Below, piece after piece: positions 2,848 through 18,642 of a DNA stretch of 64,000 bases. The DNA comes from Fuerstiella marisgermanici (GTDB lineage: Bacteria > Planctomycetota > Planctomycetia > Planctomycetales > Planctomycetaceae), in assembly GCF_001983935.1 (NCBI RefSeq), contig NZ_CP017641.1, positions 992,001 through 1,056,000 of the forward strand, written 5' to 3'. Each line of letters begins with the position of its first letter. Positions within the stretch are counted from its first letter, which is position 1. Position numbers and translations under genes: made by a program. The notes under the pieces are model-generated. The model had not been told where the DNA came from. It did not search any database and saw only the letters and a program-made list of their open reading frames with translations.

Positions 2848-5800
2848 CTACGATGGCTGTTCCGCTTCAATCAGGAGGTGGTCCCATTCTGTGAATGTGG
2901 AGTCGATGAGTTGCTCGTTTGCGAGCGGACTCTTCGTCTTCACGACACCTGTTGCGGCGTGCTTAGATCGTGGCGTCGTATCCGGCACATCGGCCGATGC
3001 GGTTTCGTAAGGTTCGTTAAAGATTTCAGCACGCCGTTGTGTTTTGAAGGTCCTCTGGTCGGAGGCGTCGCTTGTCAGAATGCGGGCGAACACGTTCGGT
3101 AGCACTGAATCTTCGCCGTCTCTACTGTCGCTCGAGGTTGAATCTGCCACAGTGAAACTCACTGCCGCTGACCAGATTCCCGGCGTGCCATCGCTGTGGA
3201 TCGCTCGTACCCACGCTCGGTAATCGCCCGCTGCCAGCGCTGTTGACGGAGTGTATGCGTTGGTTGTCAGGTTAGCGTCATGTATGACTCGGCTGAGTCT
3301 ATTGGTTTCGTTGTCGACCCATAATTCGTAACCAACAGCCCCTTTTGCGGCCGTCCAGTTGAACGTCGGTGTTGAGCCATCGACTGTGCCAACAGGATCC
3401 AGCACGACCGGGCGATCCGGGCTGGTCGTGAACTTGAAGCCGGGGCTCCATTCACCGTTGGTCGCGGCCATGAACGCCATCACCCAGACGGTGTGTTCGG
3501 TGCCTGCCGCCAGTTGACGGGGAATCACAAAGGACGGCCCGGTCGCTCCGGTCGTATGAGCGACTCGGCGACCAGTGTCGTCTTCGACCCACACTCGGTA
3601 CCGCGTGGCGTCTGGCACAGGCTTCCATGTGACGATCGGTGACAGCGAAGTCGTCCCGGTTGGACCGGTAACTGTTGTGCGAGCCAGCGTGTTGAAGCTG
3701 CCAGCGTCGGACCACTTCGACTTAAAGCCGTTCGCTTCTGTCGCCCGCACCCACCATTCGTACTCACCTTCAGCCAGAGGAGTGGTCAGCGAGACCGACG
3801 TTCCTCGTACACCGCTTAGTTCAACAACTCGGTCGACCTGCACTGGTGCCGTTTGCCGGACCCAAAGTTCGTACGTCAGTGACGGTGAACTCTGCGCCCA
3901 TCTTAGCGTAGGAGTTGTGCTAAAGGTGCCTCCAATAGGGTTCAGCAACATCGGCGGACTGTTAAGCCGAATGCTGGTGCTGGCCCATGTGCCGCCGTAG
4001 TTGTCTTCAGAGAACGGTCGCACCCACACGGTGTAGTCACCCAGCGGCAGGTCGGAATCCGGCGTGAAGGAATTCGTGGTGACGTTTGGGTCACGCAGCA
4101 GCAGACCCTGCTCGCCGGTGTCGTACGTGAACATCACGTCATACCGAGTCGCTCCGGCGATTCGCTGCCAATGGATTTCCGGTCGACTATCCAGTTTGAA
4201 CTGACCACGGAAGAACCGTGGCTGCGTCTGGATTTCAAAAGCAACCGGCTCGCTCCATTCGGTCAGATCGCCGCTTTCAAAGTAGCCTCGCACTCGGAAT
4301 TCGTAGCTTCCCAGGGCCAGCGGTTGCTGCGGCTGAAAGGCGTGGACTTCTGTTGACGCCAACGTCACGATTCCGCCCGCCGTCAGGTTGACGATTTCGA
4401 CATCGTAACGCACGACATCAATCACCGGGTTCCATGCCAACTGCGGCAGAGGGTTCTGAATCGGTCCCGGCGGCTGGATGCCCTTCGGGATAGACGGCAG
4501 AACCACGTTCTCGATTTCCACGAAGCTCACTGGCTTCATGCCCGCGATGTCATACCCGCCCGAATCACTGGTCGGCCCCGGAATGCGCGTGACTGTTCCG
4601 GCTGTGGTGGTGATGTTCAGCAGATCGCCGAAACCGATTGGATCGCCGCCGTTCACACGAACAGCAGTCGTCGCTGACGGCGTCACGTTGAAGGTGTCTA
4701 GGCCCGCTCCACCGTCGATGCTGATCGAAGGAATATTGAACAAGCCAACAGTCTTGCTCAAACCAGCGAAGCCAACTTCGGTCGACGTGATGTTGATCGT
4801 GTCATCGAAGACGGTCCCATCGACGTTAACGTGGCGTATTGGACGTTCTGATCCCATTGACGGTGTCACCGACGAAATCGTGATGTTTCCGGTAGTTGTG
4901 AGATCGAAATTGAGATCGTCGCTGCTAATGTTCACGCGGTCGGCTGTGAGTGGAGTCGCAGTCACGGCCCCGGATGCGTCCGCCGCACCACTGACGAGGA
5001 TATTGGTCGCGGTGCCAAATTCGTCGGTCGTGCCCTGCAGCGAAAACTGTTCAACACTGAGGCTTGTGAGCAGTCGTGAGTCCTGTACGACCCCGGGTAG
5101 CATCACCTGAGCGTTTGCGCCGTCGAATTCCTGAATCAGACGGTCGTTGCCGTCAGCGCCGTCGATATGCAGCGAGCCTGCGACTGGGAGGGATCTGGTC
5201 ACTGCAATGACGTCGCTGCCCGCACCGGCAAGCACTGCAAACGATTCGAAGTTGCTATGACTGAACTGCTGATTGTTCACCGCCAAATCGTTGCCCACAA
5301 ACCCAATAGTATCGGAATCCTGCGAACCGAAGATCGTTAGCAGGTCGTCCCCGCCGCGAGGATCGATTCCGACAGCGTTGACGTCCCGCAGGGTCAGTGG
5401 CGTGGCGTCATTGAATCGCAAAATCGACTTTTTGTTGCCCAGCGGAGTGAGTTCGACGACATCGTTTTCGCCCGGCGTCGCTGCGATTGAGCCTTCGCCG
5501 TGCTGGCCCGGTTTAAGGTCGGCTCCGAACGAAGATTGCGAGTCGGTTGAAACGGCGAAGTCGTCATTAACGTCGAAGATTACAAGTTCGTAGGCACCGT
5601 CTCCATTCGGGTTCTCGTTGGAAATTCGAATATAGTACTTTCCTTCCGGAAGCGCATTCGTGACAGCCGCATTTCCGCGTGAGCCAACAATATTCGAGCC
5701 GCTTGCCAGAACGGTTTCGCCGTCCGAGTCCAAAATCTCCAGCACCGAATGCGTCAGCGTTCCGGTCGTCGAATGATCGTTGTTAATGTCAATATGTATC

Positions 5801-8800
5801 GCAGCGATTCGATGGTCGTTATTGATGTCGATTGCAATCAGGTCCGTGTCACCAAATGGGACCGCACCACGGCGAGCGACACGATGGTCGTTGTTGATGT
5901 CGATTGCGACGGTGTTTTCATCGGTGATAGAGTCGTTAGGTTCTGTCTCTTCTATATATTCTTCAGCGGCGACTATTGCCGAGAACAGCTTGAAGTCGGT
6001 GACCGCCTGTCCATCACTGCTTGTAACTTCCCAGAAAAGATTGTCCTGTGCTTCGAGACCGCCGCCGCTGACTGCGATGACCCCGCCATTCTGGTTTGAT
6101 GGGAAGTCCGGATCATTCAGGGGAGTCGATGCGTCGGCACCAAGCAGGCGTACAATAGGAAGGCCCGGCCCGGCACCGGGAGTCACAAACGCAAACGCTC
6201 TGGCCTCCGGATCATTGGTTCCTGCCGTCCGATACGTCACCGACGGCGCAGCGTCGTTGCTGTTTGCGACAAGACTTTGCGCATCCACAATAATTTCATC
6301 GAAGAATCCAGGCTGAAGAACCGCACGGCCGTTAGTAAAGGTGGCATCGGGCTGGTAGCTCAGATCCTGAGCGTAGATCGTGACAGCGTCGTGAGCGTCG
6401 CCGCGTCCGCCGGACAGGTGGATGTCCCAGTCGGACAGAGACGTTGCAAATCGGTCGGCCCCGCCAAGCCCATCGACGATCATCCTCGCGTCTGTCCCCA
6501 GGTCGAACAACTGCAACTGAGTGCGATTATCAACATTCACCACTGGAATACCCGGATGGTCAATCGTGATGTCGTTGTCGTCATCATCGCCGTAGATGAA
6601 AATGACCGCGTCAGAGTTTTCAAAACGCGCATCCAGTGTGTCGACTCCTGAGTAATCGATGGTTCGTTCGCCCTCATTCCGCCGTTGTGTCACGAGTCGC
6701 CCTGCTCGAGAATCCTCAAACGGGATGAATTCAGCGGATGCAGCTCGCCCGACAACTTTCAGCCTGTCATCGTCACCGGCCCCCGCGTCCACGTGCACGT
6801 CGATCAGAATCGGGTTGACGATTTCCACCTGGTCATCGCCGCCACGCGATTCCACTCGAACGGATTCGTGATTGCTTAGCACTACGGCGTCGGCGGAGTC
6901 GATTGTAACCTCGGTCGCTTTGACCTGAACGAAGTCGTCATTGTCGCTGCCTCGCACAATCACCGCATCCACTCCGTGGCCCAAATTCGCATTTAGCGTC
7001 TTGACGGAGTACGCCGTCAACGTGTTTGCGCCGCCGGGAAACGTGAGGTCGGTTTCTGTGTAGTAGGCGTTGTAGCGACTAAACCCCGTCGCCAGCGGGG
7101 TCGCGTCGACGACCTGCTCAAACAATAGCGTCTCGTTGAAGTTCGTGCCGGTGATTTGCAACGTGTCACGGCCTCCTGATTCAGGGATCACGATGTCGGA
7201 TACGTCCTGGATATCGATCTTCAGCCGGTTCGCGAGTGGATCTCCGATGCGATTGAAATACAGATTCGCGAAGTCCGGGTCGGTGGCATGTGGTGCGTAT
7301 TCAAATGATTCCGGGTTCGACGACGCGTGGAACAACACTTCGTTCTGTTCGTTTTCGTCATCAGAAAACTGATTCGATTCGCCTGCCACGGTCAGAAATT
7401 GCAAGTGGTCGACCGGCCCTCGCTGAGGCAACTCGATCACAAAACGATCGCGACCTCCTTCGCCGTACAGAAGCAGTCCGGGGGTTGTCGTGACGTCCTC
7501 GATCTGGAAGAAATACGCTTCCTTGTCATCCACCGTGACTCGACCGAATTGTTTGAATGGAGCCCCGCCGAACACGCCGGTGCCACGCCTCAGTGTGTCG
7601 TACGTGATGTCTTCGCTCAGGTCGGTACCGAAGACGCTGTGGTACTGTCCGACCACGCTGTTGCGAACAGGTTCCAGCCCTGTGAATTCCACCGTCATCA
7701 GACGCTGCTCGTCCGCGTCGTCAAATTCGACCCGCCCGTTGTGAGTGTCCGGGCCCGGTCTGTAAATCATGTTCTCGACAGGAGTCGTCGGATTCCCGAC
7801 AAGCTCGAGCGTGTCAAACCCTCCGTCACCGCCGTCAAAGTAGATCGGCAAAGTGATCACATCCGAACCACGAGATGCGTCGACATCAACCACCAGCGTG
7901 TCGTCACCGCCGCCTGTTTCGATACTTAGACGACCGGCACCAGCCACACGCACGTTCGCTCCGCCCTGAGTGATCTCCACTCCTACGGGATGCCATGCAT
8001 TGCCATAGCGACCAACGATCAAGTTGTCGTCGCCCGCGTTGCTGCCGATAAGTTTGGCGACATCCGTTTGCTTTAGGTTTGCGGTGTAGCTGTTCGCTCC
8101 GGAGAGTGACGGTACATCAAAGCTGACCTCACCGTGGCCGCCGCTTGCGTTCTGAACGACGAGCTGGTCCAGCCCGGATGTCAGCACGGCCCAACTACCA
8201 ATCTTTGCTCCCGTTCCGATGTCTCGTTTCCCAATCAGGTCCTGCCCGCTTCCGATGCCCGCCACGTGTATTGATGAATTCGGTTCGGTAGGCCATTGCA
8301 CGCTGACGATGTCGTCTCCGTCGCCGACCAGCGATGTCCGACTGATCAGGACACCGATAATCTTCGCTTCGCCGCCGAGGCCGTTGACTTCCACTCCGCT
8401 GCCGGATTCCGACGGGCCGACCATGATGTTGCCCGTGATCCCCGATAGATCGACGTTGAGGTCGTCGATCGGCTGAGCGAGAGTTAACGTTCCGTCGTAG
8501 TTGTTGAAGGCGATGATTTCGTTGCCGGACGAGTCTCTTCCGCTGACTCGCACGCCGCCATCGCCGTCGCTGGCCGTGTCGAAGGTTCGCACGTGCGGCC
8601 CGCCGCCGACGCCCGGGCCGACCACGATGTCCGCGTCGTCTGTTCCCGGATTGTCGAGCACAAGGCGTTCGATGTGGTCGTAGCTGATGTGTGTGCTGTC
8701 GATGATGACGCCACCGGAATCGTTTTCGGGGCCGCCCTCAAGCCGCACGTTTTGAGCCGACATCGGAATGACAACTTCAAGCAGGTCTCCCGTCAGGTCG

Positions 8801-11800
8801 CCGATCGGATCGCCGCCGTCGACGAACACTGAGTGGTTAATCGTGGGGGAGATCACGATGCGATCGGCCCCTTCCTGCCCGTTGATGCGGATGGCGGCAT
8901 CACCGTTCAGATTCAGATCAACAGGTTGCAGACCGACGACTTCCACGCGGTTGTTGCTGACGTTGATCGTGTCGTCACCGAGTGTGCCGTTGAATTCGAA
9001 GGTTGTCGGAGCCGGCGAGTCAATCTGAATGTCGGCCGCATTGCCAATGATTGCTCGTTTGTCGGAAACGTTGGTTGTGACCTCGATGGCATCGAGTCCC
9101 GGTGTGATGGAGGCTACCGAATTTGCAAATCCGTGGCTCAGGAACGCGTTGGCGCCGGTGGCGTTCACTGCAACCGTCTCGAAGCCTCGCAGCCGCTGGT
9201 CTCTCAGGATGGCGTTTTCCTGAATCTGGCCGAATGCCTCACCCGTCGAAAGTACCACGGCGCCGCCGTTGCCGTGATATAGCAACACGTCGCCGTGAGA
9301 CTCGCCTGCGTTGATTTCGACGAAGGTATCGTTGAAGCCACGGGTGACTGCGTTGTCGGCGCCATCGCCGAGTTCGGCTGCCAGGTTCTCTGTGTTGCGG
9401 ATGTCGAACGGCTGCTGGTTAAGGAATGCTCGCGGACCGGCGTGCAGATCAAATTCGTCGTCTCCGTCTGTGCCGTTGATGATGACCGTATCCGTGCCGC
9501 GACCTGGATCGATAGTCACGCTTTCGAAGTCGGCCAGAGACAGTGGCGTCGAATTGTTGTACCGGATGTTGGACTCGCGGTTGCCCAACGGATCGACAAC
9601 TACGACGTCGTCGCGACCGTTTTCTGGTGGGTTATTCGGATCGGCGTCCGGCGGTGTTCCGGGGACGTGGCCCTTCCAGTGGTTCGGAATATGAACGCCG
9701 AACGACGTGCCGGGACTCGTCGCATGATTGCCCGAATCGCCGTCGTTCGTTTCGTCTTCAATTAATTCATCGGAGACATCGAAGACCACCATTTCGTAGT
9801 TAGTCGCGTCCGGGCTGCCGTCGCCGCCGTTGGTGACTCGGATAAAATACGTGCCTGCGGGCAGTGGTTGAGTGATGACCGCTCCGGCCGACTCAATGGC
9901 ACTGCCATTCGTGCCGGCCAGCACGGTGGTTCCATCGGTGTCGAGCACTTCGAGCAGTGTGTGAGTGACTTCGGTTGCACCTGCCTGGTTGCTATCGCTA
10001 CCGGCACTTCGGTGATCATTGTTAATGACCACGCCAATGCGATGATCATTGTTGATGACGACCGAGATCATGTCGGCGTCGCCCATCGGCACGGAACCTC
10101 GAATTCCGACACGGTGGTCGTTATTGATTACAACGGCGATGTCGTCCGAGACAAGATTGTTGGGTTCTGCTTCTGTAACGAATTCGTCCGGACCAATTAC
10201 GCCGCCGATCAGTTCCACTTCTCGAGCACCTTCGTTTCCTTGCTTGCGGCCGACCGGGCTGCTCACGGCCAGGTAGACCTGGTCGGCTCCGTCAGGGATC
10301 GGGACGCCAGCCGCTGTGTGAGGACTATGTGTATCGGCGTTGGTACGCAGTTCGGTTTTGCCGTCGGAGCCAAAGACGTTTAAGGACGGCAGCAGGCCAG
10401 CACTTTCTGTGGTTTCGAATGCCGCGCCGAAGTATTTCACGCCGCTGACGGCGGGTGCTGGCGTTGTCTGAATCCACGTTGCTGGCCGACTCAACGGTGT
10501 CTCCTGAGCCGTCAGCGAATCGTTTCCGAGTCCACCGCTCACGGTCGCGTCTTCGACGTTATGAAACTCGACGCTTCGCCCATTGCGGCTAAACTCGCCC
10601 GAGCTAGCCAGTACGGGATTCGGCGTGTACGAGAATAAATCATCGCCCGCCGTTCCCGCCAGAATCAGCGAATCACCGTCAACCGGATCGCCGCCGTCAA
10701 CGATGACGCGACCGCTGAAACCAACGGTCGCGTTCGACACGCCGAACGTATCCTGCCCCGCCCCGCCTTCGAGCCTCACGTCACGTTTGCCGAAGAATTC
10801 GTAACGTTCGAAGCCATCGACTTCGACGCTGCCGAATCCGGGCAGCGCACTCGTTGCAAGGTTGATGCTGTTTGCTGCTGCGTTGGCCACGATTGTGACA
10901 TCGCCAGGAACTGCGTCGAGAATCGGTTCGAGTCCGGTGAAGCGGATGTTCTGAGTCGTGGTGTTGTCACTGTGCCGAATCTGTCCGGACGAAGGATCCG
11001 GACCAACGTTATAGGTCGCCAAAACAGGTTTCGAACCGGCCAAGGCAAGAATGTCGAAACCGTCGCCGCCGTGATACGTGATGCCGGACGGAAGTCCCAA
11101 CAACCCGCCGTTGGACTCGTCGATCGTCAGGCGGTCGTCACCACCCTGGCCTTTGAATGTGAGGTTGTCGATGCCGAAGATGTCGATATCAGCCGAAGTT
11201 CCGTTAGTGACTCGAAAACTTTCCATAGCCGGGTTTGGCTGTCGTTGGGCAACAAAACTGTCGTTTGCCGCCGAGCCAATGATTGTGAGCAGATCTCCGG
11301 GGCCGTATCCCGCGTCGATTCCGACAGACATCGTGGCGTTCGAGCTGCCACTGATTGTGTCTTCGCCCTCCCCGGTACTTAAAATCAGGTGCCCGATATC
11401 TGTCAGTTCCAACGGGTTGCGGCCAACACCATGGCGACGATGTCGCACTGTGCTTTCGCTGAACTCGATGACGTCGTCAGCCTCGCCCGACGTGCTGTAC
11501 AAAATGTAGTCGATGTCGCTAAGCTGCACTCCCGCAGAATTGTTCCGGAAGTCGACGTCGTGCATTTCGACAGAACGAACATCATGAACGTTGAACGGTC
11601 CGACCGGATTTGACACGAACGTCGAATCCCTGATCACGACGTCCAATCCAGTCGATTCAACATCGAATAATGACGTAGACGTGCTGTGGAACAGCGAGTT
11701 ACTGACCGTCAGAGTTCCCGTGAGATTCCGGCCCCGGAAACCACGTTCTTCCCGGATAACGACGTTCTCAAGTGTCGGAGCGACCACGGAATCGGCGACG

Positions 11801-13509
11801 AGATCCGCAGCGATCGTGATGTGCCGAATCGCAACTCCGTCGCCGCCCGAAACGATCGACATCGACGCTGGCGCGAAGAACTCAGCGTCGCCGGCGAAGC
11901 CCGACGTGCCCTGCAGAGTCAGTGGTTTGGAAATCGACACGTCGGCGTTGTACGAGCCACCAACAACATGCACCGTCCCGCCGGACGCGACAGCGCTGAC
12001 TCCATCATCAATTCTTGAAAATACATCTACTCCGAAAGTCCCCGGCTGATTGCCTGCGGCGTCCGGATTAGCGTCAGCGATCGGTGTGCCGTTGGCCGTG
12101 CCAACCAGATCGTCGTCGACGTAGACATCCATCGGGGCAAATACAATAGCTGTGAGGACAACATCATTGCCCGTTCCGCCGGCGTAGCTGATCTCAAAGT
12201 TCTGCCCGTTAACAAGGAATGTGGAGCCTGCCGGCAGACCGGCAAAGGTTCCGGTGACTGCGTCGGTGCCGTCGTTGTCGATCAGCACAATCGTATCGCC
12301 GGGAGTTGTGCCGACGATCGCGCCCGACACATTGAGGGTGGCGTTGCCGAGGTTCACTGTGCCGTTGACCTTGAGCTGATCGTGATCGGCGCCCGCGGTG
12401 GTTCCGTCGACATTGGGCGCAAACGCCGCATTCGCACTGAAGATCGTATTTCCGAAAGTCAGCGTTCCCGATCCGCCGTTGCCCGGTTGGACCGAGCCTT
12501 GCACGATATTAACCGCAGCGTTCACGTTGCCGCCGCCCTGAATGACGCCGCCGGTGTCGATGCTCAGCGATCCCGTCAGCACGACGCTGCCACTAATGTT
12601 CACGACGTCCGTCCCAACGCCGGTAATGATTGCAAGCCCCGTGACGCCGTGAGCATTTGGGCTGCCGCTGATGTTGATCGTGTCGTTGCCGTCGGCGTTG
12701 TTCGTCGTCGTGTTGACCGTAAGAAAATCGGACTGAAACGTCCTCAGCTCTTCAAATGCGACACCCCCGGATGTACCGCTGACGACCAGGTAGTCCGCGC
12801 CCCCAATTGTTGTTCCCGCAACGGAAAGCACGTCATCGGTGTTTGGAAGCAGGATGCCAACACTCTGACCACCGCTGACATACATCGGCTCCAACCCCTC
12901 AAACGTCAAAAGAAGGTTGTCGTCGCCGCGAAATACCTCGCCATCGCCGAACGTAGTGGCACTGGGAATATAGATAAGTTCTTCGGCGTCGTCGCTCAGC
13001 ATCGTCAATAAGTCGTTGCCGCCATCGCCGCCGAAGACGTGGATTCCGCCCGGTAGCGCCAACGTTCCAGCGGTCATGTCGACAATGAATTCGTCGTCGC
13101 CTTCGCCGCCTTCCAGGGTCACGCTGTTCACCCCACCGAAGAGGAATGGATCGATGTTGGAAAGACCAATCACGTTCGGGAAGTCGCCCGCCGCCGTCAC
13201 GTGAATCGTTGTGACCTCTTCGGCAAACAGGACTCCTGTATCGACGTCAGCCCCATTCACTAGCACCTGCCCGGCGGCGGCAGTGATGAAGACATCGTCT
13301 GCTGCGTCGATGTCCACGCTCAACTGCCCTGTCGCGCCGTCAAAGGCGGAGACCACCGTCAACAGCGTTCTGTCTTCCAGCAGCTCAATCTGACGATGTC
13401 GCGCTGCCGTCCGCGGCATTTGGCCCCGATGCCGTAGACGGCGCGACGATGCGAATTGACAATTGCTGCGGATCGTGTGCAGGATCGAACTGACGGTTAC
13501 ACGTAGCAT
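2848..13509 (-). CDS. Giant secreted/surface protein with LEDRTLL N-terminus, beta repeats, two PPC-like modules and fibronectin-like repeats
   Basis: This 3,553-residue protein begins with a basic N-terminus (RRLRHRG, RTAARHR) followed by LEDRTLL at residues 44-50, the signature that precedes many giant exported planctomycete proteins. In order: GGEGDDEF/GGDGGNDLL-type beta repeats; an autotransporter-like beta segment with a GGNVNAAVNIVQGSVQPG motif (about 290-450); a right-handed beta-helix-like region (about 465-720); many further GGxGxDxF-type repeats; two homologous PPC-like modules near residues 1113-1248 and 2519-2649, each holding three INNDHR motifs; and five tandem fibronectin-III-like repeats (about 3005-3460, consensus W-x-P-x-x-x-A-x-R-Y-x-V). 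The C-terminus (about 90 residues) has no recognised domain. Composition is rich in Asp, Gly and Asn, suggesting calcium binding. It is probably an adhesin or cell-envelope scaffold. It is transcribed divergently from the sigma factor at 13757, which may control it. Product function is inferred from architecture only. Confidence 0.85.
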   Translation of the reverse strand: MLRVTVSSILHTIRSNCQFASSRRLRHRGQMPRTAARHRQIELLEDRTLLTVVSAFDGATGQLSVDIDAADDVFITAAAGQVLVNGADVDTGVLFAEEVTTIHVTAAGDFPNVIGLSNIDPFLFGGVNSVTLEGGEGDDEFIVDMTAGTLALPGGIHVFGGDGGNDLLTMLSDDAEELIYIPSATTFGDGEVFRGDDNLLLTFEGLEPMYVSGGQSVGILLPNTDDVLSVAGTTIGGADYLVVSGTSGGVAFEELRTFQSDFLTVNTTTNNADGNDTINISGSPNAHGVTGLAIITGVGTDVVNISGSVVLTGSLSIDTGGVIQGGGNVNAAVNIVQGSVQPGNGGSGTLTFGNTIFSANAAFAPNVDGTTAGADHDQLKVNGTVNLGNATLNVSGAIVGTTPGDTIVLIDNDGTDAVTGTFAGLPAGSTFLVNGQNFEISYAGGTGNDVVLTAIVFAPMDVYVDDDLVGTANGTPIADANPDAAGNQPGTFGVDVFSRIDDGVSAVASGGTVHVVGGSYNADVSISKPLTLQGTSGFAGDAEFFAPASMSIVSGGDGVAIRHITIAADLVADSVVAPTLENVVIREERGFRGRNLTGTLTVSNSLFHSTSTSLFDVESTGLDVVIRDSTFVSNPVGPFNVHDVRSVEMHDVDFRNNSAGVQLSDIDYILYSTSGEADDVIEFSESTVRHRRHGVGRNPLELTDIGHLILSTGEGEDTISGSSNATMSVGIDAGYGPGDLLTIIGSAANDSFVAQRQPNPAMESFRVTNGTSADIDIFGIDNLTFKGQGGDDRLTIDESNGGLLGLPSGITYHGGDGFDILALAGSKPVLATYNVGPDPSSGQIRHSDNTTTQNIRFTGLEPILDAVPGDVTIVANAAANSINLATSALPGFGSVEVDGFERYEFFGKRDVRLEGGAGQDTFGVSNATVGFSGRVIVDGGDPVDGDSLILAGTAGDDLFSYTPNPVLASSGEFSRNGRSVEFHNVEDATVSGGLGNDSLTAQETPLSRPATWIQTTPAPAVSGVKYFGAAFETTESAGLLPSLNVFGSDGKTELRTNADTHSPHTAAGVPIPDGADQVYLAVSSPVGRKQGNEGAREVELIGGVIGPDEFVTEAEPNNLVSDDIAVVINNDHRVGIRGSVPMGDADMISVVINNDHRIGVVINNDHRSAGSDSNQAGATEVTHTLLEVLDTDGTTVLAGTNGSAIESAGAVITQPLPAGTYFIRVTNGGDGSPDATNYEMVVFDVSDELIEDETNDGDSGNHATSPGTSFGVHIPNHWKGHVPGTPPDADPNNPPENGRDDVVVVDPLGNRESNIRYNNSTPLSLADFESVTIDPGRGTDTVIINGTDGDDEFDLHAGPRAFLNQQPFDIRNTENLAAELGDGADNAVTRGFNDTFVEINAGESHGDVLLYHGNGGAVVLSTGEAFGQIQENAILRDQRLRGFETVAVNATGANAFLSHGFANSVASITPGLDAIEVTTNVSDKRAIIGNAADIQIDSPAPTTFEFNGTLGDDTINVSNNRVEVVGLQPVDLNLNGDAAIRINGQEGADRIVISPTINHSVFVDGGDPIGDLTGDLLEVVIPMSAQNVRLEGGPENDSGGVIIDSTHISYDHIERLVLDNPGTDDADIVVGPGVGGGPHVRTFDTASDGDGGVRVSGRDSSGNEIIAFNNYDGTLTLAQPIDDLNVDLSGITGNIMVGPSESGSGVEVNGLGGEAKIIGVLISRTSLVGDGDDIVSVQWPTEPNSSIHVAGIGSGQDLIGKRDIGTGAKIGSWAVLTSGLDQLVVQNASGGHGEVSFDVPSLSGANSYTANLKQTDVAKLIGSNAGDDNLIVGRYGNAWHPVGVEITQGGANVRVAGAGRLSIETGGGDDTLVVDVDASRGSDVITLPIYFDGGDGGFDTLELVGNPTTPVENMIYRPGPDTHNGRVEFDDADEQRLMTVEFTGLEPVRNSVVGQYHSVFGTDLSEDITYDTLRRGTGVFGGAPFKQFGRVTVDDKEAYFFQIEDVTTTPGLLLYGEGGRDRFVIELPQRGPVDHLQFLTVAGESNQFSDDENEQNEVLFHASSNPESFEYAPHATDPDFANLYFNRIGDPLANRLKIDIQDVSDIVIPESGGRDTLQITGTNFNETLLFEQVVDATPLATGFSRYNAYYTETDLTFPGGANTLTAYSVKTLNANLGHGVDAVIVRGSDNDDFVQVKATEVTIDSADAVVLSNHESVRVESRGGDDQVEIVNPILIDVHVDAGAGDDDRLKVVGRAASAEFIPFEDSRAGRLVTQRRNEGERTIDYSGVDTLDARFENSDAVIFIYGDDDDNDITIDHPGIPVVNVDNRTQLQLFDLGTDARMIVDGLGGADRFATSLSDWDIHLSGGRGDAHDAVTIYAQDLSYQPDATFTNGRAVLQPGFFDEIIVDAQSLVANSNDAAPSVTYRTAGTNDPEARAFAFVTPGAGPGLPIVRLLGADASTPLNDPDFPSNQNGGVIAVSGGGLEAQDNLFWEVTSSDGQAVTDFKLFSAIVAAEEYIEETEPNDSITDENTVAIDINNDHRVARRGAVPFGDTDLIAIDINNDHRIAAIHIDINNDHSTTGTLTHSVLEILDSDGETVLASGSNIVGSRGNAAVTNALPEGKYYIRISNENPNGDGAYELVIFDVNDDFAVSTDSQSSFGADLKPGQHGEGSIAATPGENDVVELTPLGNKKSILRFNDATPLTLRDVNAVGIDPRGGDDLLTIFGSQDSDTIGFVGNDLAVNNQQFSHSNFESFAVLAGAGSDVIAVTRSLPVAGSLHIDGADGNDRLIQEFDGANAQVMLPGVVQDSRLLTSLSVEQFSLQGTTDEFGTATNILVSGAADASGAVTATPLTADRVNISSDDLNFDLTTTGNITISSVTPSMGSERPIRHVNVDGTVFDDTINITSTEVGFAGLSKTVGLFNIPSISIDGGAGLDTFNVTPSATTAVRVNGGDPIGFGDLLNITTTAGTVTRIPGPTSDSGGYDIAGMKPVSFVEIENVVLPSIPKGIQPPGPIQNPLPQLAWNPVIDVVRYDVEIVNLTAGGIVTLASTEVHAFQPQQPLALGSYEFRVRGYFESGDLTEWSEPVAFEIQTQPRFFRGQFKLDSRPEIHWQRIAGATRYDVMFTYDTGEQGLLLRDPNVTTNSFTPDSDLPLGDYTVWVRPFSEDNYGGTWASTSIRLNSPPMLLNPIGGTFSTTPTLRWAQSSPSLTYELWVRQTAPVQVDRVVELSGVRGTSVSLTTPLAEGEYEWWVRATEANGFKSKWSDAGSFNTLARTTVTGPTGTTSLSPIVTWKPVPDATRYRVWVEDDTGRRVAHTTGATGPSFVIPRQLAAGTEHTVWVMAFMAATNGEWSPGFKFTTSPDRPVVLDPVGTVDGSTPTFNWTAAKGAVGYELWVDNETNRLSRVIHDANLTTNAYTPSTALAAGDYRAWVRAIHSDGTPGIWSAAVSFTVADSTSSDSRDGEDSVLPNVFARILTSDASDQRTFKTQRRAEIFNEPYETASADVPDTTPRSKHAATGVVKTKSPLANEQLIDSTFTEWDHLLIEAEQPS
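5562..5952 (-). repeat. PPC-like module 2 of the giant protein with three IDINNDH motifs
   Basis: This segment starts with ETEPNDS, as PPC (bacterial pre-peptidase C-terminal) domains do, and ends with YELVIFDVNDDF. Three copies of IDINNDH(R/S) fall near 5881-5905, 5810-5833 and 5771-5794. It is homologous to the module at 9765-10173, and both are followed by a PLGN-(R/K)-(E/K)-S-I-R segment. Synonymous positions differ between the copies while the motif residues stay fixed. Confidence 0.75.
9765..10173 (-). repeat. PPC-like module 1 of the giant protein with three VVINNDHR motifs
   Basis: The module starts with EAEPNN and ends with YEMVVFDVSDEL. Three copies of VVINNDHR lie near 10110-10133, 10041-10061 and 10009-10032, at spacings similar to those in module 2. 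All three copies carry VV before INNDHR, whereas all three in module 2 carry ID. Codons differ among the copies, so the motif is conserved at protein level. Confidence 0.75.
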
Positions 13510-13756
13510 GGTAGTGACCCTTATTCAGAAGAAATCTGCTGCTCGATTGAGCCGTAAACTGGGACTTCTGAATGGACTACTGCGACCACTGGCAGCGTTC
13601 ATACAGAACCGAACCGGAAATTCCGGAGAAAGCCGGTATCCACTCCTCCACAGGCGTTTCGCGTGGCTGAACAGAATGCCACACCCGCGGAAAAATGAAT
13701 TTGTACGTGTACGACTTCTGGTCGCATTCGCAGTACACTTCTTCATGAGGAGTACC

Positions 13757-14371
13757 ATGTCGTTAGACCATTCTGATTTTCACAGCGACAGCGATCAGGC
13801 GGGCCTTGGTGAACTGTTTGCTCAGCACAGAGAACGCTTGCGCCGCATGGTTCAACTACGACTGGACCGGCGGCTGAACGGCCGAGTCGACGCATCCGAT
13901 GTGATTCAGGATGCGTATGTTGAGGCCACTCAAAGACACGCGGAGTATCAGGCAAAGCCGGAGGTGAGCCCATTTGTTTGGCTGCGGTTTCTCACCAGCC
14001 AAAAATTGGCTCAGTTGCATCGCTTCCATCTGGGCGTGCAGGCTCGTGATGCAGGACGAGAAGTTTCAATCGACTGCGGCGGTCGACTGGAAGCGTCGTC
14101 GGCCGCGTTGGCGGCAAAACTGGTGGGCCGTTTTTCTTCTCCCAGCAACGCCGCGAATCGGGCTGAGTTACGACAGCAGATTCAGGATGCGTTGAACGCC
14201 ATGGAAGAATTTGATCGCGAAATTCTGGCGCTGCGACATTTCGAACAGCTCGACAATGCCGAAGCGGCTCAGGTGCTGAGTATAGAGCCTCAAGCCGCTT
14301 ACAAGCGATACGTGCGGGCGATCCGTCGATTGAAGAGTGCCCTGAATGACCTGGAGCAGTCGAATTCATGA
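13757..14371 (+). CDS. ECF-type RNA polymerase sigma factor (planctomycete family)
   Basis: The 204-residue protein has region 2 (LFAQHRERLRRMVQLRLD, VDASDVIQDAYVEA) and region 4 (FDREILALRHFEQLDNAEAA, then the helix-turn-helix VLSIEPQAAYKRYVRAIRR). It matches the planctomycete sigma-70 subfamily linked to Ser/Thr kinases. I chose the ATG at 13757 because GAGGAG lies just upstream; the open frame extends further 5' without family similarity. Its stop overlaps the start of the downstream kinase as ATGA, so the two are probably translationally coupled and the kinase may control sigma activity. The divergent giant-protein gene begins 247 bp away and is a plausible target. Confidence 0.9.
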   Translation: MSLDHSDFHSDSDQAGLGELFAQHRERLRRMVQLRLDRRLNGRVDASDVIQDAYVEATQRHAEYQAKPEVSPFVWLRFLTSQKLAQLHRFHLGVQARDAGREVSIDCGGRLEASSAALAAKLVGRFSSPSNAANRAELRQQIQDALNAMEEFDREILALRHFEQLDNAEAAQVLSIEPQAAYKRYVRAIRRLKSALNDLEQSNS

Positions 14372-17300
14372 CGACGGACGGCGATATCGACGACAAACTC
14401 GGCCCATTAATGGACGAGTTCCTAAGCCGCAAACGTCAGGGCGAATACCCGTCGCTGTCGGAATTTGTCCAGCGGCATCCGGAACTGGAACAGGAAATTC
14501 GAGAACTCTTTCCCGCTGTGGCCATGATGGAACAGGCTGAGGTTTCGGAACCGTTGCACGATGGCGGTGCGGCTGTGACACCTGATGGGACTGAGCTAAA
14601 ACGGTTGGGCGATTTTCGCATCATCCGTGAAATCGGCCGAGGCGGCATGGGCGTCGTGTATGAGGCCATTCAGGAGTCTCTTGGCCGACACGTGGCGCTA
14701 AAGCTGTTGCCGTGGCAGTCTATGGCGGACAGTCGGCAGGTCAAACGGTTTCAACGCGAAGCCCGGATCGCTGCGTCGCTGCATCACAGCAATATTGTGC
14801 CGGTGTATGGCGTGGGCGAAGCTGATGGTCTGCACTTTCTGGCGATGCAGTACATCCATGGTCAAAGCCTCGATTCGGTGCTGCGCGAATTGCAGCAGTT
14901 GCGGAATGACGCTGGTGCTCGCCAACCTTCTTCGGTCTCACCGATCGAAGTAGACGTTGCGCGGCACCCCATGGAAGATGCCAGCGCTCTTTCAGGCGTG
15001 TCATCTTCTTTGCTGCAATCAGCATCTGGCTCCTCATCCCATGCTGACTATTTCCGCCATGCCGCTGAACTCATGGCGAACGTGGCGGACGCTCTCGATT
15101 ACGCACATTCTCAGGGCGTGCTGCATCGTGATATTAAGCCAGCCAACCTTATGCTGGACGTCGAGAAGAATATCTGGATCACCGATTTCGGTCTGGCTCG
15201 TGCCGGTGATACGGCCGAAGCACTTGATACCGACACTCCTCACGAAGCGGACAACCTGACTCAGACCGGCGACCTGATCGGCACGTTGCGCTACCTTGCT
15301 CCCGAACGGTTTCAGGGAACGAATGATTGTCGCAGCGATGTCTACAGTTTGGGGCTGACGCTTTTCGAATTCCTTACCCTGCAGCCGGCATTTCGAGCGG
15401 CTGATCGAGCGACGCTGATTCGGGAGATTACAACCAGTCCGCTGCCATTGCCGCGATCGCTGATTCCAGACATTCCTCGCGATCTGGAAACGATCGTGAT
15501 GAAGGCCTCTCATCCCGACCCACGACTTCGCTATGGGGCGGCTGCCGACATGGCGAAGGATTTGCGCAGGTTTCTTGACGATAAGCCAATCGTAGCCCGT
15601 CGAGCATCACCGTGGAAACGCTGTCAACTCTGGTGCCGCCGCAATCCTGCCGTCGCCGCACTCAGCGGACTGGCGCTAACGTTGCTGGTAATGGTGGCGA
15701 TTGTTTCGAGCGTCGCCGCAGTGAAGCTTAGCAGCCGACAGAATGAATTACTGTTGTCGCTGGACCGAGCGACGAATGCCGAGATTCGCGAACGGGAGGC
15801 GAACGACCAGGCGACAGAGAATCTGTTTGAAGCGTATGCCGCTCGCGCGAAGTCGGGACGGGAAGGTTTCCGGCCTGGGCGAGCGTTTGATGGGCTGGAA
15901 GCGATCGCGAATGCGTCGGCTCTGCGAGATCGATTGCACGTCGACGACCGGCAAATCGAACGCCTCCGCAACGAAGCGATCGCGTGTCTGGGGTTGGTGG
16001 ACGTGAAGCCGGATATTGACCGGCCGGATCCTGGCATTCCTCACTCGTTCGAACGCTGGGGCTTTGATTCTCAAATGGAACGCTACGCTCGCGTATCAAG
16101 TACGGGCGGAATCGATGTGATGACTGTTGAGAAAGGCGATCACGTCGCTCATTTCTCACGCGGCTGGGATCCCCTTTATCCTCCATACACACGGTTCAGT
16201 TCCGATGATCGATATTTAGCGGTTATGGGTTCTCACGATAGCGGGGTCACTCGTCTTGAAATCTGGCACACCGGCGACTGGACGCCTTATCTGCCGAGTG
16301 TGCCTTCGTCCGCTGAGTCCTTCGCGCACGCGTTCGCTTTCAGCGATGATGGTCAGTTGGCCACATGGATTGGCAACAACCAGCTGATCGTATTTGATCT
16401 GAAATCACGCCGTGTGGTGCAGCGGCGAGTGTTCGACTATTCGCCCGACTTTGTAACCTTCTGCCATTCCGGTTGCCACATCGCGATCGGGTGGGGCGCC
16501 GGCGTGGCTGTGTTCGACTGGCGTTCCGATGCGGAGCTGACCGTCATACCGCACCAGGAATATGTCAGAGATGCGGACTTCAGTCACAGCGGTCGGTTTC
16601 TTGCCACCGCCTGCTATGACCACATGGCGTACGTCTGGGACTTGCAAAATCCGGAGAGGCCGATTGCGACCTGTTCGGGACACACCAGCAAGGTGTTGAA
16701 GGCTGAGTTCAGTCCGGATGACTGCGTGCTGATGACCACAGCGTGGGACGACACGACTCGGTTGTGGAACCCCTGGATCGGCAACCAACTGTTGCGGATC
16801 AACCGCTACGCGACTGGTTTTAGCAAGGACGGAAAGTGGCTGGGACTTCAGGAAACTGGTGATTCGGTGGGCCGATTTCAATTCCAACCTGCACCAGCGT
16901 GCCGTGTGTTGAGCTGGGAATCTGATGACGACCGCTATGCAGGTGTTCATGGAATTGCGTTCCATCCCGACGGTTCGTTTCTGGCTCACACAGCCGGCGA
17001 CCAGGTGGTCATTCGAACGTGGCCGGACGCAACGGTGCTGCACGTGCTTCGCTGCCCACGACTTGTACGCAACCTTAGTTTCGATGTCACCGGCGAGTTT
17101 CTGTTCGCGGGCGTTGATGGCTGTATGATTCGGTGGAAAACGGATTCTTTAGCGGCCATTGATACGACCGAATTGGAGGGCACTCGCAGCGAAGTCGCTG
17201 GACAGGCCGATGTTGTTGTCGAAGTTGAGTTGACGCACGCGGCCGATGTTGCCTTCCTGAATATGTCCGGCGGAAAGGCTTATGAATTTGACCCGACGTC

Positions 17301-18642
17301 TTCCGATTTGACGATGGGCACCCCACTTGCTGCGGAATGGACGGATTGGTTTGTCGCGGCGAAACCAGACGGAAGTGTCTACGCCTTGTCGGGGAAATAC
17401 ACCGATTTGGTGCGGGCATTTCGACGTGAGGACCAGTCGGAGGTGTTCCGCTATGAACTGCCGGACGAAACCGCCGCTCGCATCGACTTCTCTCCGACCG
17501 GACATCAGTTGCTGATGTGTGCCCGAAATGCGTTGCACGTCTTTGACGCTCAAACCTGGGAGATCGCTGCCACGATTCCGCTTCGAAATACGGGCTACGC
17601 GCGAGCAGCCTGGTCACCAGACGGACGGTTGCTGGCGGCTCATGATGGCGAGGAAATTCTGCTGTTGGAAGCAGACCACTGGACTCCGTTGGCCCGATTT
17701 CAGAACCCGTACGGCGAATCGTATTCCAAGGCTGGCCCCGAGGCGGTGCTTGGGCTGACGTTTAGTCCGGACCAACGGTACCTGGCATCCGGCACGGGGA
17801 CCAGTGCCCACAGTTTGTATGTATGGGATGTTCACGAAGTGCGTCGCCAGCTTGGGACGATGAAACTCGACTGGGATGCCACGCCGCTACCAGCCAAACG
17901 CAGCGTAGCTGTGCCACCCGCTGACCATTTGGGAAAGTGCTTCTGTGAACTCCCCGTGTCGTCTCAGGACCGGTTAGTTCAAAAGCAAAAGCGGCTCGAA
18001 GAGTTACTGAGCGACGACCCGACCAACAGAGAGTTGTTGTATCAGTATGCGACCCTGTTGAGCGAATCGGGATTAACAGAAGAAGCCATTGCCGCTTACG
18101 ACCGGAGTCTTACCATCAAACCAGACGATGTGCACGTCTTGGGAAAGCGAACCTGGCTATTGCTGAAATCGCGGCGCAACAAGGAAGCAGCGCGCGACTG
18201 TGAACGCATTCTGGAACTCAGTGGCGACGACAACGGACGCTGGTCGTGGGCGAGTCACACTCTGGCATGGCTGATGTTGATTGGCGAGCCAGCATTGCGT
18301 GACGACGATCGAGCACTGCAGTTGATGGAAGAAGCCGTTCGCCGAACTCCCGACGACACCCTCGTTGCAAATACGTACGGCCTGGCTTTGTGCCGTGCGG
18401 GAAGGTTTGAAGAAGCCGTGACGGTGTTAAAAGCCAATCTCGAACGGCCAGCCAACACTTCTGCAGCCACAGACTATCTATGCCTCGCATGGGCACAACA
18501 CGCAGAAGGTGATTCAATTGCTTCCACAGAAGCCTGGAACGCAGCGATGCGAACATGGTTCGCTGACAAGGAAGTAATGCCACTGAACGTGATCGAGTTT
18601 CAGCGGCTAAGTCGCGAAGTGGCGGTTGAAATCGCGCCTTGA
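14368..18642 (+). CDS. Membrane Ser/Thr protein kinase with WD40 and TPR sensor regions
   Basis: The protein has 1,424 residues. A short N-terminal segment (FLSRKRQGEYPSLSEFVQRH) is typical of planctomycete kinases. The kinase domain follows at about 81-405: Gly loop GRGGMGVVYEA, Lys112, HRDIKPAN from residue 253, DFG from residue 273, APERF near 311. It has an extra segment of about 50 residues (roughly 175-225), rich in Ser and Ala, before the catalytic loop. One transmembrane helix lies at about 428-452, so the C-terminal part should be outside the cytoplasm. That part contains WD40-type repeats (about 530-1170, for example FSHSGRFLATACYDHMAYVWD) and a TPR region (about 1205-1400). It is coupled to the upstream ECF sigma gene by an ATGA overlap. 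The likely role is to relay a signal, sensed by protein-protein contact, to the sigma factor. Confidence 0.92.
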   Translation: MTTDGDIDDKLGPLMDEFLSRKRQGEYPSLSEFVQRHPELEQEIRELFPAVAMMEQAEVSEPLHDGGAAVTPDGTELKRLGDFRIIREIGRGGMGVVYEAIQESLGRHVALKLLPWQSMADSRQVKRFQREARIAASLHHSNIVPVYGVGEADGLHFLAMQYIHGQSLDSVLRELQQLRNDAGARQPSSVSPIEVDVARHPMEDASALSGVSSSLLQSASGSSSHADYFRHAAELMANVADALDYAHSQGVLHRDIKPANLMLDVEKNIWITDFGLARAGDTAEALDTDTPHEADNLTQTGDLIGTLRYLAPERFQGTNDCRSDVYSLGLTLFEFLTLQPAFRAADRATLIREITTSPLPLPRSLIPDIPRDLETIVMKASHPDPRLRYGAAADMAKDLRRFLDDKPIVARRASPWKRCQLWCRRNPAVAALSGLALTLLVMVAIVSSVAAVKLSSRQNELLLSLDRATNAEIREREANDQATENLFEAYAARAKSGREGFRPGRAFDGLEAIANASALRDRLHVDDRQIERLRNEAIACLGLVDVKPDIDRPDPGIPHSFERWGFDSQMERYARVSSTGGIDVMTVEKGDHVAHFSRGWDPLYPPYTRFSSDDRYLAVMGSHDSGVTRLEIWHTGDWTPYLPSVPSSAESFAHAFAFSDDGQLATWIGNNQLIVFDLKSRRVVQRRVFDYSPDFVTFCHSGCHIAIGWGAGVAVFDWRSDAELTVIPHQEYVRDADFSHSGRFLATACYDHMAYVWDLQNPERPIATCSGHTSKVLKAEFSPDDCVLMTTAWDDTTRLWNPWIGNQLLRINRYATGFSKDGKWLGLQETGDSVGRFQFQPAPACRVLSWESDDDRYAGVHGIAFHPDGSFLAHTAGDQVVIRTWPDATVLHVLRCPRLVRNLSFDVTGEFLFAGVDGCMIRWKTDSLAAIDTTELEGTRSEVAGQADVVVEVELTHAADVAFLNMSGGKAYEFDPTSSDLTMGTPLAAEWTDWFVAAKPDGSVYALSGKYTDLVRAFRREDQSEVFRYELPDETAARIDFSPTGHQLLMCARNALHVFDAQTWEIAATIPLRNTGYARAAWSPDGRLLAAHDGEEILLLEADHWTPLARFQNPYGESYSKAGPEAVLGLTFSPDQRYLASGTGTSAHSLYVWDVHEVRRQLGTMKLDWDATPLPAKRSVAVPPADHLGKCFCELPVSSQDRLVQKQKRLEELLSDDPTNRELLYQYATLLSESGLTEEAIAAYDRSLTIKPDDVHVLGKRTWLLLKSRRNKEAARDCERILELSGDDNGRWSWASHTLAWLMLIGEPALRDDDRALQLMEEAVRRTPDDTLVANTYGLALCRAGRFEEAVTVLKANLERPANTSAATDYLCLAWAQHAEGDSIASTEAWNAAMRTWFADKEVMPLNVIEFQRLSREVAVEIAP

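Follow-up and report, generated by a model that had tools for sequence, protein, structure and literature searches.

Matched peptide tracts at two predicted hairpin tips of PPC-type modules in a giant planctomycete protein, and their probable origin by short-tract gene conversion

The stretch of DNA analyzed here (the window; 64,000 nucleotides of the Fuerstiella marisgermanici genome) contains an open reading frame for a giant protein of 3,553 residues (2848..13509, minus strand), which has an N-terminal LEDRTLLT motif and, within it, two homologous modules in which the short peptide INNDHR is found again and again. The locus raises the question of why the same few residues should occupy separate places in one domain, and why the sequence leading into them should be one thing in the first module and another in the second.

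Motif copies, their rarity and the relatives that carry them

The initial annotation had described six copies of INNDH(R/S) in two modules, and all six were found exactly where it had placed them, on the minus strand and within the single 3,553-residue frame. In module 1 (9766..10179) every copy reads VVINNDHR, at 10111..10134 (site 1), 10039..10062 (site 2) and 10009..10032 (site 3). In module 2 (5560..5952) sites 1 and 2 read IDINNDHR (5881..5904 and 5809..5832) and site 3 reads IDINNDHS (5770..5793), so that the two residues preceding the motif are indeed VV throughout the first module and ID throughout the second. Positions are numbered below with the His and Arg of the motif at +4 and +5.

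The motif is rare. Its DNA pattern occurred five times in the 8.92-Mb genome, each time within the giant gene, and seven times in 169 other genomes of the family, one per genome and mostly in short unrelated frames. One of the family occurrences lies in another PPC-like protein (LRLLDSSGRIVAINNDHRGLDALL, L101 near 1501), at the usual NDD loop and not at hairpin tips. In a sample of 316 ORFs, taken from about 400 kb of the same genome, the window and two relatives, a six-residue word present three times within 80 residues was found only in the giant protein and in one plain tandem-repeat protein. A chance origin of the repeated motif was rejected on this repeat density, which is far beyond chance. 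The possibility of a common or linker motif was also rejected, as the motif is rare in the family, confined to the modules and situated in predicted strand-turn-strand elements.

When 84,980 species genomes were scanned with motif-derived patterns, a search that modules with very different tracts would escape, the module was identified in two further genomes only, the Pirellulaceae MAGs SJ586 (L041) and HKST-UBA58 (L042). No further module emerged from profile and protein searches, which covered 170 genomes from the family, 398 from the class and 392 from the phylum. A single-sequence search for the module in seven congeneric genomes was negative, as was the search of plasmid records. The whole comparison consists of three genomes and four modules, and two of the modules have very similar tracts. 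The sequence at sites 1 and 2 is VQIDHNHR in each relative; at site 3 the relatives have VVNNDPA or IVDNDPT, and the third copy of the motif is absent there.

The SJ586 protein has 5,252 residues and is homologous to the giant protein of the window (residues 22-844, 49%; residues 1727-3000, 54%). In the window, the giant gene is preceded by a divergent gene for an ECF-type sigma factor (13463..14371, plus strand), an arrangement shared with SJ586, and by a gene for a Ser/Thr kinase with WD40 and TPR repeats (14368..18642, plus strand), which is 47% identical to its SJ586 counterpart over 462 aligned positions (SJ586 genes at L075:2-2033, minus strand). As the divergent sigma-factor and kinase genes also lie upstream in SJ586, orthology of the two giant genes is very probable. 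The SJ586 gene has a single module, and the place of window module 1 is taken in it by different sequence, in which TolB-like propeller repeats were recognized by eye.

Predicted fold of the modules and placement of the copies

The initial annotation had considered that the modules start like PPC domains and had known of no described domain with their pattern. The Pfam PPC model (PF04151) scored the two modules at 15.4 and 14.2 bits, under its gathering cut-off of 25.9, and a sequence search of solved structures returned no significant match. AlphaFold models, built from four sequences and of moderate confidence (mean pLDDT 58 and 64), were matched by Foldseek to 1nqj (TM-score 0.75, by target length), 5sv5 (0.75) and 4hpk (0.76), and the best match of a 233-residue model was the tandem collagen-binding pair 5iku. 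As judged from these predicted models, the modules are divergent tandem PPC-type beta-sandwiches with the fold of clostridial collagen-binding domains, which are a subclass of PPC domains (PMC4356367). A PPC/collagen-binding-domain-like fold makes the module a domain of a known kind; the PPC-like start was supported and the absence of a described domain was not. Annotation gains by this, in that the modules can be assigned to PPC/collagen-binding-type domains that sequence models had missed. A match of TIGR04183, the T9SS sorting domain, at residues 1182-1229 (window 9823-9966, minus strand; 27 bits against a cut-off of 23) was judged false on account of its place in the middle of module 1, away from the C-terminus of the protein; it probably reflects the PPC-like strand pattern and could mislead annotation.

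The window modules have in common with the ColG s3a and s3b collagen-binding domains (1nqj, 4hpk, 5iku) the predicted fold, an N-terminal EPN(N/D), a GDxD loop and a tandem arrangement. They differ from the ColG domains in scoring below the Pfam PPC cut-off and in carrying the matched INNDHR/IDHNHR tract at hairpin tips. Collagen binding is a property of the ColG domains, to which the window modules are likened by fold and sequence.

An acidic N-terminal linker (E-x-E-P-N-N/D) and a GDxD loop occur in each of the two window modules, all on the minus strand. In module 1 these are EAEPNN (10156..10173) and GDAD (10072..10083), the latter between strands B and C of the model; in module 2 they are ETEPND (5932..5949) and GDTD (5842..5853). 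Linker and loop together form a candidate calcium signature, which we take to resemble the calcium site of collagen-binding domains and which, in the sequence, is separate from the INNDHR copies. Both elements are missing or broken in SJ586 and HKST-UBA58 (FVDIP.., GGND/GGNS). Calcium reshapes the s3a-s3b linker of the clostridial collagen-binding domains (PMC4356367).

The two models agree in placing site 1 at the turn that joins strands 1 and 2 of the module (hairpin A-B) and site 2 at the turn that joins strands 3 and 4 (hairpin C-D), with site 3 in a loop after the fourth strand. A constant 24 residues separate site 1 from site 2 in each of the four modules. Since strand direction alternates, the strand order would leave sites 1 and 2 together at one end of the sandwich, with site 3 opposite them. 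In an alignment by eye, L060, a PPC relative that is more distant, has ordinary turns, ATPGKT and AVAGNR, at the two hairpin places.

This placement bears on the earlier suggestion that all three Asn/Asp/His motifs converge to form a metal- or ligand-binding site. The N/D/H/R content of the tract is polar and the His at +4 is invariant at sites 1 and 2, as such a site might have; however, the predicted topology sets site 3 at the opposite end from the other two, which makes one three-motif site unlikely. Furthermore, the would-be ligands are not conserved in the orthologues, where site 3 reads NNDP or DNDP and NND at sites 1 and 2 has become DHN, so that the order of N, D and H differs between lineages, and the domain already has a separate candidate calcium signature in EPN and GDxD. 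We consider a shared site of this kind very improbable.

Matched tracts and how they may have arisen

A column-by-column comparison showed that, from -2 to +5, site 1 is identical to site 2 in all four modules. Between modules, positions -2, -1, +1, +2 and +3 of this lineage-specific tract vary (VV, ID or VQ; NND or DHN), and the His at +4 and Arg at +5 are invariant at both sites. The edges of the tract are sharp: at position +6 all four copies of site 1 have V and all four of site 2 have I, and beyond it the flanks of the two sites share only +7, with partial upstream matches at -3 and -4. The sequence of the eight-residue tract tracks the module and that of the flanks tracks the site, the pattern expected of gene conversion; at the protein level, sites within a gene were more alike than orthologous sites in all four modules. 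These comparisons also agree with the initial annotation in its reading of protein-level conservation with a sequence tuned to each module.

The DNA comparison confirmed that synonymous codons differ among the copies, and the modules fell into two kinds. In module 1 and in SJ586, 8/10 codons differ between sites 1 and 2 with the amino acids of the tract unchanged; synonymous randomization under an unchanged peptide indicates that selection maintains the peptide there. In contrast, sites 1 and 2 of window module 2 match at 31/36 nt, with differences in 2/10 shared-residue codons, and those of HKST-UBA58 have an identical stretch of 29 nt. The statement that the copies are not a recent DNA duplication thus holds for module 1 but is put in doubt for module 2, and the HKST-UBA58 identity speaks against the view that copying at the DNA level plays no part. 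Relative to a synonymous background of 0.59 codons differing, taken between SJ586 and HKST-UBA58, synonymous differences were below background in the HKST-UBA58 pair (P about 0.002-0.007) and the module 2 pair (P 0.015), values which are modest and come from several comparisons. DNA likeness beyond codon usage was present, then, in two of the four modules and absent in module 1 and SJ586. In addition, HKST-UBA58 site 1 matches SJ586 site 2 at 30/36 nt and SJ586 site 1 at 26/36 nt, which suggests, on small numbers, copying from site 2 to site 1. A diversity-generating retroelement was rejected on the pattern of change, as the copies differ by third-position synonymous changes that are not adenine-targeted.

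We think it probable that the tracts match because gene conversion has intermittently overwritten a short tract at one of two equivalent hairpins with that of the other, and that purifying selection has acted between events; this accounts for all the data with known processes. Beta-hairpins A-B and C-D would be equivalent and share one end of the sandwich, and copies 1 and 2 would form their tips together with the adjoining ends of the strands. Gene conversion or template switching within the gene would occasionally carry a tract of about 24-30 nt from one of these hairpins to its partner. The tract may have a structural, turn-forming role, and purifying selection on the turn would afterwards preserve the peptide, leaving synonymous codons free to drift. 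Copy 3, placed in the loop at the opposite end, would have joined the same sequence only in the lineage of this genome.

The absence of any trace of recent copying in the DNA of module 1 and SJ586 means that, for these two, selection for matching tips alone could suffice. If the tips must match, through mutual contact or joint binding of one repetitive ligand, any copying would be incidental; tracts matched in all four modules despite synonymous randomization in module 1 and SJ586, and a His at +4 and an Arg at +5 that are invariant at both sites, are consistent with this. Such selection would not by itself predict the DNA likeness seen in two modules, however, and the ligand or tip contact is hypothetical. 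We regard this possibility, although more interesting than conversion, as rather unlikely. Still less likely, in our estimation, is that the two non-adjacent tips are a locked pair which can change only by copying one onto the other; if so, they would form a recognition element that matches itself and that, like an identity tag, is specific to the lineage. The constant 24-residue spacing would also suit an old duplication of a strand-hairpin unit of that length (A-B to C-D), strongly constrained since and with no later copying, but this would leave unexplained both the appearance of the same new sequence at the two sites in each lineage and the 29-nt identity in HKST-UBA58, and we disfavor it as improbable.

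Copies that are more alike within a gene than orthologous copies are also found in tandem-repeat proteins under concerted evolution. Unlike the head-to-tail units of such proteins, the copies in the window are short and occupy fixed, non-tandem places in one folded domain. They represent a compact case of peptide segments at distinct sites of a single folded domain evolving in concert, and more relatives, if found, could distinguish sameness imposed by recombination from sameness demanded by function. Literature searches returned no paper on PPC domains of planctomycetes or on the conversion of short repeats within a gene.

The giant protein and its surroundings

The giant protein is taken to be secreted. 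Based on its size, its N-terminal motif and the kinds of domain it contains, it is probably located on the cell surface and adhesive. It resembles other giant planctomycete proteins with an N-terminal LEDRxLL-type motif in its size, that motif, its repeats and a fn3-like C-terminal part, and differs from them in the module with matched tracts, which was seen in three genomes only. Tandem repeats of about 28 residues, rich in YTV and Cys and of the planctomycete YTV type, were observed in a protein at L113:9025-10629.

Beside the giant gene, at 3-2571 on the minus strand, there is a LexA repressor (1978-2571), an ORF without a Pfam match (985-1947) and an ImuB-like Y-family polymerase domain (3-1157), a row which looks like a lexA-imuA-imuB mutagenesis cassette.
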